Below are positions 39,112-53,390 of a stretch of DNA of 64,000 bases, one piece after another; the stretch's first letter is position 1; each line of letters starts with the position of its first letter. Location: NCBI GenBank assembly GCA_039096225.1, contig JBBPEB010000013.1:1018001-1082000 (forward strand). Reading direction: 5' to 3'. Source of the DNA: Blastocystis sp. Blastoise (lineage: Eukaryota; Sar; Bigyra; Opalinata; Blastocystidae). The position numbers and the translations under genes are program-made. A model generated the notes under the pieces. The model did not search any database. It was given only the letters and a program-made list of their open reading frames with translations, and was not told the DNA's origin.

Positions 39112-40245
39112 TTAAACATTTACACCATCACCACCATCATTATCATTACCTAATTGGATTTCTCTAGCAATAGTTTTCTTATCTTCACGAACCATTTCTT
39201 TGACTAAATCAAAGAATTTTACAGAAGGAGTCCAACCAAGTTTAGTCTTAGCTTTTTCACAATTACCAAGAAGAAGATCAACTTCAGTAGGTCTGAAATA
39301 CTTAGGATCAACACGAATTAAAACTCTTTCAGGATTAGATTTATCAACACCAACTTCTTCAACAGATCCTTTTTCTCCCTTCCATTCAATTTCAATACCA
39401 ATTTCCTTGAAAGCTAATTCACAGAATTCTCTAACAGAATGTCCTTCACCAGTAGCAAGTACATAATCATCAGGTTCATCTTGTTGTAAGATTCTCCACA
39501 TACCTTCAACATAATCTCTAGCATGACCCCAATCACGAATAGCATCAAGATTACCTAAATATAAGCAATCATCAACACCTAATTGAATACGAACAACAGC
39601 ACGAGAAATCTTTCTGGTAATAAAAGTGTTACCACGACGAGGAGATTCATGATTGAATAAGATACCATTAGAAACATGCATATCATAAGCTTCACGATAA
39701 TTAACAACTATCCAGAAAGCATATTGTTTAGCAACACCATAAGGAGAACGAGGATAGAAAGGAGTTAATTCACTTTGAGGAATTTCACGAACTTTACCAA
39801 ATAATTCAGAAGTAGAAGCTTGATAGAATCTACAAGTCTTTTCAAGTCCACAAGTACGAATAGCATTTAATAAACGAAGTGTACCAATAGCATCAACTTC
39901 AGCAGTATATTCAGCAAGATCAAAAGATACCTTGACATGAGATTGAGCACCTAAGTTATAGACTTCATCAGGTCTAACTTTAGAGATAATATGGCAAAGA
40001 TTAGAACTATCAGTTAAATCACCATAATGAAGGAAAAGAGTGACATTCTTACAGTGAGGATCACGATAAAGGTGATTAATTCTTCCAGTATTAAAAGATG
40101 AAGATCTACGAATAATACCATGAACTTCATATCCTTTACTAAGTAAGAGTTCAGTTAAATAAGAACCATCTTGACCAGTTATACCAGTAATTAAAGCAAC
40201 CTTTTTAGTTCTTGGAGAAGTGTTCAAAGTAGGAGTTACAGGCAT
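39112..40245 (-). CDS. GMD: GDP-mannose 4,6-dehydratase
   Basis: First step of GDP-L-fucose synthesis: GDP-mannose to GDP-4-keto-6-deoxymannose. Single exon of 377 residues, the usual length. The Rossmann NADP motif is [20 protein letters not shown]; then [31 protein letters not shown] and [20 protein letters not shown]. The active-site Ser/Thr and the Tyr..Lys pair are in [11 protein letters not shown] and [15 protein letters not shown]. The substrate-binding segment [20 protein letters not shown] and the [12 protein letters not shown] region near the C-terminus are intact. The start is preceded by GTACACCAG-free AT-rich DNA; no alternative start fits. It is divergent from GDP-L-fucose synthase with 416 bases between the starts, and both lack introns. 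Confidence 0.97.
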
Positions 40246-41609
<1,364 letters not shown>

Positions 41610-50418: not shown

Positions 50419-53390
50419 ATGAAAGAAACTATTGTTTTAATCTTTATTCTCTATACTGTCATTTCTTCTGGACAAAGGTTAGTGATGTCTTCGACTTCAT
50501 ATGCTGATAAGTTATATCCAAAAGACACAATTGAAGCTAATAAGTTATTAGACAGTCTTTTAAGAGCAGATTTTGTATATATATAAATCAGTGGCTATTA
50601 TTCACAATTTATTTGTTTTACTGATTCTTTATTTTATATAGTTAAATCATATTACTCCTGTGGATGATGCTGCAGGTATTTTCGTTCCATATGGAAGAAT
50701 TGGAACTGTAGGAATGGTATGTTTTTCTTCATTGTTTCTTTTTTTTTAAAGAATGAAACGAAATAATACATAATTGATTGTTAATATACTGTTTATACAT
50801 ATATAGAGAATTGTAGAAACATTCAAATATATTAGTGATTTAGATAATAGGAAGACAGTAATTATCATTGCTTCCAGTTACAATTCTTCTTTTGATGGTA
50901 TTTCTGTAGCTCAATATAATTCTTATACTACAGTTATCAGAACAGTTCAATACGATGTATCTATATATATATATATATATTATTTGTGTATCTAATTCTA
51001 TTTATATCTATAGTATTCTTTAGCTGAACAACTTGTTTATTTACATCCAGATATTTACTCCTATGTATATATTTATATATTTATATATTTATATATTTAT
51101 ATATTTATATATTTATATATTTATATGTTTATATATTTATATATTTATATGTTTATATATTTATATATTTATATATTTATATGTTTATATATTTATATAA
51201 TATTTATATTTATATATTTATATATATATATTACTGTTATGTTTATTGAGCATATATATACATATATATATAGAGTCATGAAGCTCACTCGAAGAATATC
51301 GCTATAGAAACAATTCTTCTTCTTATTTCTAAATTCTACCCTAATATGAGTGTGATGACAGTAGTAGTAGGAACAAAAGATATATATAAACATGAATTAT
51401 TATTACAAGATCTTGATTTTATTACGAATATCAATGATCGTATATATAAAATTTTCCTTCTTCTGATATTTATATATTTGATACTCTATATATTATATTA
51501 TGTTTATTTATATATAGATTTTTTGATATTTCCTATGCTTCTCTCTCAGGCCAACTCGAAGAATACAGTAGTTGATGCAGATACTGTATATATATAATAT
51601 ATATTATATATTATATATTATATATTATATATAGGATTTAAATGAGTTTATTGCAAAGAATGATATTACTTCTTTTCGCTCCAATTGGATTCGCGGGAAG
51701 TTCCCCAACGTTCGTGATCTTTCCGTTATACATATATGCATGCTTTACTGTCGTTATTATGATTTCAGTCTCTCCTTAAGTACCTATGATTGTGCAAGTA
51801 TATTATTATTATATATACTTATTATTATATATACTGTTATATATAATATTATGTATACTATTATTATATAATAATTATTATATATACTATTATTATTAGT
51901 ACTCTTTTTAAATATACTATACTACACTATACTGTTTTCTTCATACATCTTTATATATTCTTTATATATTATACTATGAGTATTGATATACTATAATATC
52001 TAGCACCTGCGAAAGGAAGCAAATACTATTTTGGTTATCTCTCAGGTAAGTCTTATTCTCTTATATATATATATATTCTTTTTAGGGATATATCTCAAAG
52101 CAAAAATACTCTTCGACCTAGATTCCAGTATATATATAAAGGTTATATATATATATATATATATATATATAACCTTTATATATATAGAAACGATTCCTAT
52201 AGAAACAAAAACATTCCTGTTGACTCTCGCTCTCGAAACACTGAAATCAAAGTATTCTATTAATTATTATTATATATATAGTTATACTATATTGTTTATT
52301 CTTACAAGAAATCTTTGGTTTTTATTATTTAAATATATATATATATATTTTTGCTTTCCCTCTATATAGTTTGGCGGGAAGTACTTCGGCTCCTTCACTT
52401 AGTAATATGATGTCAAAGATTCGATTCTATAAGGAAGTTAAAATACAAAATTATGCATGTGTCACTTTTGTACTAGATAGGTATATATATATTATTATGA
52501 TTAGTTATATATACATTCTTTATTACTATATTATATTTATTAACAGCAATTCTTTATTTCATCCTTTATATTATTATATAATTCATTAGTTATTACATAT
52601 ATATATATATATAGTAGCATAATGCACCGATGTAATTTTGGTGAGAATCATTTGTCCGATTTATTTGCTACTGTTTATGATCTCTCTCTCTTTATTACTA
52701 AAAACATGTGTAGGGAATATACTATTGTTGACTTCGCTAGATTCCATGTATTTATCACCATCTACTCCTGTATATATATATATATATATTATAGTACTAT
52801 ATGATTACTATACTATTATTATAATAAGTAATAAGAATACTATATATATATACATATAGCTCTTGTTCCTCCTTATCAGCGTCCCTCTGTCTTCTTTACC
52901 ACTGACCCCGAAACACAAACAAAAGTGTTAACGGTTAATAACAGCCTTCATCGAACACTATTATCGTTTGATCCTGGTGTATATATATATATATTCATAT
53001 AGATTTGATTTGATTTTAATTTATTATATATATATATAATATTTTATTTGAATCCATAATATATATATTTGATTTTAATAAATTTATACTATATTTGATT
53101 TTAATAAATTTATAACATATGATTTCCTATAAATCTATACTATATATAAATGTATATTTTTAATAACTCTATACTATATATAGAGTTATTCTCACGCCTG
53201 TTTAATGAGTTCCGTGTATCAGTCCAAACAGTTATTTGAAGAGATCGATCCCGACCATCGCAGTAAGCAGAGTGCTATAGAGGCTCTTCAAAGACTCTGC
53301 ATTCGTAATAAACTAGATCCTGAGTGCTGGAGTAATAATCAAATAGTATTCTTTATGGCCAGTTGTGATTCTCTCGGAGCCAGTATTTAA
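50419..53390 (+). CDS. Secreted Memo-AMMECR1 fusion protein with degenerate active site
   Basis: About 13 exons that all join in phase. The start at 50419 gives [20 protein letters not shown], a convincing signal peptide. The next ~290 residues align with MEMO1: [33 protein letters not shown] (MEMO1: PHAGYTYCG), [16 protein letters not shown] (RRIFILGPSHH), [18 protein letters not shown], then [18 protein letters not shown] (DEDEHSIEMHLPY), [10 protein letters not shown], a long helix with [18 protein letters not shown], and YYFGYLSG. From the exon at about 52188 the protein follows the AMMECR1 fold: [40 protein letters not shown] (normally VFVTL..G.LRGCIG), [16 protein letters not shown], and the closing [20 protein letters not shown] then ECW. 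Stop TAA 53388-53390. His residues that define the Memo/LigB pocket are changed (PHAG to PYGR, PSH to SSY). Fused Memo-AMMECR1 domains are known from prokaryotes; a secreted eukaryotic form is unusual. Confidence 0.75.
51063..51235 (+). repeat. (ATATATTTAT)n repeat in intron
   Basis: About 15 copies of a ten-base unit (tttatatatt), with variants tttatatgtt every few units, filling most of an intron of the Memo-AMMECR1 gene. Confidence 0.95.

Follow-up and report, generated by a model that had tools for sequence, protein, structure and literature searches.

The subject of this work is a gene in a 64,000-nucleotide stretch of the genome of Blastocystis sp. Blastoise (assembly GCA_039096225.1, contig JBBPEB010000013.1, positions 1,018,001 to 1,082,000; hereafter the window, in whose coordinates the features are given unless stated otherwise). 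It runs on the plus strand from an ATG at 50419 to a TAA at 53388-53390 and, in the spliced model, comprises 14 plus-strand exons that predict a protein of 522 amino acids. With somewhat better than even confidence, its product is read here as an exported pseudo-enzyme, a Memo-AMMECR1 fusion of bacterial type that was acquired laterally and would now act as a non-catalytic binding protein. In the public annotation the gene is WA158_003966, a 508-residue 'hypothetical protein' of Blastocystis sp. Blastoise. The original prediction, made from this DNA sequence, held up in part: its picture of a probably secreted fusion of prokaryotic type, whose motifs are rewritten and whose role may plausibly be to bind without catalysis, was supported, and other elements of it were corrected, as described below.

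The N-terminal half of the protein is a Memo domain, as had been proposed. It scored above the cut-offs of two curated families, with 31.2 bits against 27 for Memo (PF01875; expect value, E, 1.7e-7) in the Pfam search and 35.5 bits against 26 for Memo AmmeMemoSam_B (TIGR04336; E 6.4e-9) in the NCBIfam search. A profile built from 120 bacterial fusions matched residues 5-262, a global profile alignment placed this half 11 standard deviations above 1000 shuffles, and the predicted structure of this half has the Memo fold.

The metal site of this domain is gone. In the numbering of human MEMO1 that site comprises H49, H81, D189, H192 and C244; all five of these residues, the ones compared, are lost in the window protein, and the same five are intact in all 16 bacterial fusions examined. 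The changes can be followed by alignment from exon to exon. In exon 2 (50642..50716, residues 53-77) PYGR replaces PHAG, with H49 over Y69, and in exon 3 (50807..50956, residues 78-127) ASSYN replaces GPSHH, with H81 over Y102; alignment with human MEMO1 and the bacterial fusions thus agrees with the original reading of the first of these motifs, as alignment does with that of the second. Exon 4 (51014..51064, residues 128-144) continues the Memo domain, as judged by its splice sites and the fusion profile. Exon 5 (51274..51439, residues 145-200) retains EAH and has NIA in place of EHS, and the earlier equation of EHS with EAHS was out of register: in the bacterial fusion P0002, an EAH that stands before EHS is the counterpart of EAHS, and the counterpart of EHS is NIA. 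The SSDxxH motif is lost in exon 6 (51518..51585, residues 200-222), where D189 lies over L207 and H192 over Q210. The C-terminal part of Memo in exon 7 (51635..51797, residues 223-277) has a gap under the Cys of the CGG/TICG motif, C244 being aligned with a gap, and the Memo end in exon 8 (52004..52045, residues 277-291) places FGYLS over VGYAA. Two further MEMO1 positions were aligned, H12, which is Y here and is unconserved in bacteria, and L137, which is L here; neither is used as an argument. Titles of Protein Data Bank (PDB) entries record MEMO1 with iron and with copper, and describe C244S as a metal-site mutant. Because the metal residues are gone, the window protein is unlikely, judged by its sequence, to perform Memo-type chemistry.

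Exon 1 (50419..50574, residues 1-52), assigned from hydropathy, splice sites and frame, encodes a signal-peptide-like N-terminus followed by the start of Memo. Hydropathy peaks for the whole protein at residues 5-15 (3.16 over 11 residues), and the next peak, of 2.38, lies near residue 153 within the Memo domain. The signal peptide first proposed stands as a hydrophobic N-terminus, which by hydropathy and position is a candidate for a cleavable signal. The protein also has 3 N-glycosylation sequons and 10 cysteines, and these features, together with the N-terminal stretch being its most hydrophobic, fit an exported binding protein, a fit being no proof. The window protein is probably exported. 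A hydrophobic stretch before Memo was also found, by a crude hydropathy rule, in 75 of the 120 listed bacterial fusions, and 24 of these 75 have a lipobox-like Cys.

These bacterial relatives came to light through an AMMECR1 scan of GTDB genomes, from which 80 loci were kept, each taken with up to 3 kb per side. One of the 80, from Latescibacterota, carries a Memo-AMMECR1 fusion, which as a query returned 7972 proteins; all 120 of the matches listed have both Pfam domains. When the Memo half of the window protein was scored against class profiles, the profile of 22 bacterial fusions gave 55.2 bits and that of 18 stand-alone Memos from prokaryotes 37.2 bits. A profile of three Memos from eukaryotes, namely human MEMO1 and both Blastoise Memos, the latter pair spliced by eye, gave 8.0 bits. 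The stand-alone profile leaves out one odd row, L136 (G003:C8:8379-9224), a prokaryotic 466-residue frame that has a divergent Memo-like domain behind a different N-terminal part. When each profile held three sequences, 20 draws had a median of 34.7 bits for fusions, with a range of 18.9-54.4, and of 20.8 bits for stand-alone Memos, with a range of 12.4-31.1. In addition, a 14-column loop that follows the SSD motif in human MEMO1 and in the Blastoise Memo on contig C4 is missing from the alignment row of the window protein, and the C-terminus of the latter resembles the prokaryotic AMMECR1 ending, unlike the two AMMECR1 genes of the host. The bacterial Memo-AMMECR1 fusions are thus supported, if with less certainty, as the nearest in similarity.

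The original prediction had envisaged an ancient fusion that was retained and later redirected to the secretory pathway. This is not the best reading, since the preference for the fusion profile, the missing loop, the prokaryotic-like ending and the hydrophobic N-termini of the fusions are better suited to a bacterial donor gene that was already fused and already exported. That such a fusion, exported from the outset, was taken up laterally from bacteria appears likelier than redirection in the host, and we regard it, with reasonable confidence, as the likeliest origin. The ancestor would have arrived from a bacterium, fused and exported beforehand, and would then have gained introns and lost its metal chemistry. 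Its present place of work would lie outside the cytosol, in the gut lumen, at the cell surface or in a secretory compartment, where the former cleft of Memo and the surface of the AMMECR1 part might together serve to bind a ligand or partner. Both this function and the export of the protein are what we infer. The ordinary pathway would have been kept by separate Memo, AMMECR1 and radical S-adenosylmethionine (SAM) genes.

Such genes are present in the same genome, which was searched as 33.3 Mb in 34 contigs, the window lying on contig C16 (2,163,988 bases). Canonical Memo exons were found at two places (C4:1484907-1486210 and C17:674274-675569), as were canonical AMMECR1 exons (C3:1283090-1283338 and C26:1015707-1015823), and these separate genes have the PHAG, GPxH and EH motifs of Memo and LRGCIG of AMMECR1. 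An AmmeMemoRadiSam radical SAM gene lies on the minus strand at C16:1842152-1843420 and scored 326.5 bits with TIGR04337 (cut-off 220), its spliced protein reaching 327.5 bits against the same cut-off. Its sequence contains the motif CNFKCTFCQNW and is interrupted by an AT-rich stretch that is interpreted as an intron, so it is apparently a eukaryotic gene of the AmmeMemoRadiSam radical SAM family that carries an intron; at about 0.77 Mb from the window gene on the same contig, it is neither adjacent to it nor fused. A search of the genome with the window protein gave its own exons only and no second copy. The window gene was itself absent from the results of the family searches of this genome, which could therefore also have missed a second fusion that had diverged as far.

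The separate triad hints that the ligand of the fusion may be connected with the Memo, AMMECR1 and radical SAM pathway. A more specific account, in which the imported fusion is kept beside the complete intracellular set and acts outside the cell on the AmmeMemoRadiSam product, be it as decoy, sensor or carrier, is conceivable but not probable; if true, a eukaryotic pseudo-enzyme would reveal the destination of the pathway product. The canonical Memo and AMMECR1 genes, two of each, also provide the raw material for a different origin, in which duplicates of the host genes were joined within Blastocystis, gained a signal peptide and diverged fast. This would be compatible with a tree of 45 Memo domains, but the 8.0 bits obtained with the eukaryotic Memo profile (best of 200 shuffles, 5.0) fall below the whole range of the 20 three-sequence fusion draws, and both the absence of the 14-column loop and the prokaryotic-like ending speak against it, so that a fusion made in the host is rather unlikely.

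The preferred reading, that of an acquired fusion, needs an AMMECR1-type domain in the C-terminal half, and this is supported, though less certainly, by a weak profile match, by position and by the predicted fold. Two AMMECR1 stretches were weakly matched by the profile in the correct order. The score of the broad profile on this half was reached by none of 2000 shuffles and none of 350 natural pieces, and local-pair alignment pairs the window protein over its full length with the bacterial fusions shown. The predicted fold covers residues 289-508 of the annotated 508-residue protein when compared with three AMMECR1 structures, and in a one-sequence model of very low confidence the helices and strands of the C-terminal half follow one another in much the same way. 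Exon 10 (52188..52251, residues 305-326) would encode the first helix of the domain, the N-terminal helix of the profile being weakly matched there, and exon 11 (52370..52480, residues 326-363) aligns over QYGVFVTLKK in the local-pair alignment. Exon 12 (52615..52769, residues 363-415) places MHRCNF over LRGCIG in an uncertain register, exon 13 (52860..52978, residues 415-454) would contain an enlarged loop, with a low predicted local distance difference test score (pLDDT), and exon 14 with its TAA stop (53184..53390, residues 455-522) supplies the C-terminus, aligned over LQHTCWKAGLPDNAW by profile and alignment. LRGCIG is absent as such, and MHRCNF is in the likely register: C369 coincides with the Cys of RGC in 7 of 10 subsets drawn at random, in 6 of the 13 tried with the annotated protein and in one of two MAFFT modes; it does not in the first 72-row alignment, where LRGCIG is out of register. 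MHRCNFG thus likely stands in place of LRGCIG, as had been suggested, in a register that varies among alignments. That the gene instead encodes an exported Memo-like protein, with an unrelated Blastocystis-specific extension as its C-terminal half, is similarly doubtful in view of the two ordered stretches, the unmatched broad profile score, the predicted fold over residues 289-508 and the helix and strand order of the one-sequence model.

Several results weigh against the reading as an exported, laterally acquired fusion. No Pfam or NCBIfam model of AMMECR1 (PF01871 or TIGR04335) matched, even at E 10, leaving the AMMECR1-like domain of the original prediction upheld by a weaker profile, position and predicted fold, and by no curated model. 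When the single C-terminal half was compared, profile to profile, with bacterial AMMECR1, the outcome was negative, with a probability of 0.36% and E 0.17 over 22 columns only; 5 of 2000 shuffles in a second set reached the real score of the fusion-only profile, as did 1 of 1000 in the global test of this half. A PDB sequence search with the window protein gave neither Memo nor AMMECR1. The fold check confirmed Memo, but the template modelling scores for AMMECR1 were modest and the input alignment already contained AMMECR1 sequences; moreover, that alignment was picked, out of the 13 subsets, from among the 6 that bring the Cys into register, a choice that favours the AMMECR1 reading, and AlphaFold without relatives was unusable (pLDDT 32.5). 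Export has hydropathy alone as its basis. As for origin, the three-sequence score ranges of fusions and stand-alone Memos overlap, the eukaryotic class has only its three sequences, two of them by-eye splices, and the tree of 45 Memo domains fails to place the gene, the window branch, at 10 changes per column, being saturated and the tree hence unusable for origin. Searched against a protein database, the whole model (7996 candidates scored) and its residues 27-131 (53 candidates) each gave only the annotated copy; as the search requires shared exact 5-residue words, the absence of distant orthologues is not demonstrated, and with the annotated copy as the only relative found, selection is not measurable.

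The gene model itself has 14 exons where about 13 had been counted; coordinates, start, stop and frame consistency agreed with the earlier reading. All 13 introns begin with GT (12 with GTAT and 1 with GTAA) and all 13 finish with TAG, and the guanine plus cytosine (G+C) content is 27-43% in exons and 4-19% in introns. A candidate end for exon 13 that was 2 bases off gave a frameshift and was replaced by a GTAT donor. The spliced gene has no stop in the assigned frame, and the two alternative frames have 38 and 54. Its codon usage resembles that of 4 other frames of the window, with a mean log-odds of 0.23 vs -0.93 and -0.55 for the other frames and -0.41 to -0.55 for the introns of the gene; exon by exon, the assigned frame ranks top in 11 of 14, the exceptions being exons 6, 9 and 10. 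Exons 1-5 have host-like codon usage; from exon 6 on the likeness is weaker, and there G+C also tends to be higher. The sole difference of WA158_003966 from the 522-residue model is that it skips the 42-bp exon 9 (52086..52127; 14 residues, within 291-305). Codon usage does not favour this exon, and alignment with bacterial relatives does, because with it the last strand of Memo would be complete; its place in the gene is uncertain. The idea of an acquired fusion decaying into a pseudogene, with motif loss as loss of function, could draw on the five lost metal-site residues, the very long branch in the Memo tree and the failure to find a second copy or relative, but is the least probable of all, given 14 exons without a stop, intact splice sites and an in-frame codon bias that is strongest in exons 1-5, for so much divergence with zero stops would be hard for a dead gene.

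Around the gene, Pfam matches were found in 6 of the 7 neighbouring frames scanned, and the flanks include a peroxiredoxin and a mitochondrial carrier; the window has no Rfam family and no tRNA. A 1523-residue frame on the minus strand at 28734-33308 matches PA14 in two stretches and the Ig-like He_PIG in two more, has a hydrophobic segment close to its end, and is likely a surface protein. There is also a divergent nucleotide-sugar pair, with a GDP-mannose 4,6-dehydratase at 39112-40251 on the minus strand and an epimerase-family gene at 40596-41609 on the plus strand, which we take to be a GDP-fucose synthase.

Memo-AMMECR1 fusions are known from prokaryotes through the names of database proteins. 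PMC7159879 mentions Memo-Ammecr1 systems with radical SAM, and in 2019 AMMECR1 was still among the top-priority uncharacterised archaeal proteins, according to PMC6393860. In the open-licence papers searched, no eukaryotic, exported and disarmed Memo-AMMECR1 member was found, and nothing on Blastocystis together with AMMECR1, MEMO1 or Memo-like. A eukaryote that combines the radical SAM gene and the canonical Memo and AMMECR1 genes with an exported fusion lacking the metal ligands would offer a natural test of which component of the system depends on metal chemistry and which on binding alone, and a 'hypothetical' protein of a protist may hide an AMMECR1 domain that curated models overlook. 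Compared with known systems, the window protein is closest to the bacterial fusions (P0002-P0121 and L072), some of which are named 'AmmeMemoRadiSam system protein B' or 'B/A', and with which it shares domain order, overall length, loop length, the AMMECR1 ending and, in the 75 noted above, a hydrophobic N-terminus, at an identity of 15-21% in the alignments made; it differs in the five metal-site residues that the 16 examined retain and in its altered LRGCIG. Human MEMO1 (PDB 7KQ8 and 3BCZ), by contrast, stands alone with H49, H81 and C244 intact, and the archaeal AMMECR1 proteins PH0010 (1VAJ), ST0229 (1WSC) and MM0484 (1ZQ7) differ from the window half in that the latter is missed by curated models, has a changed LRGCIG and has a bigger loop. 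With the Memo (C4 and C17) and AMMECR1 (C3 and C26) genes of its own genome it shares the families, whereas those genes are separate and carry the canonical motifs.
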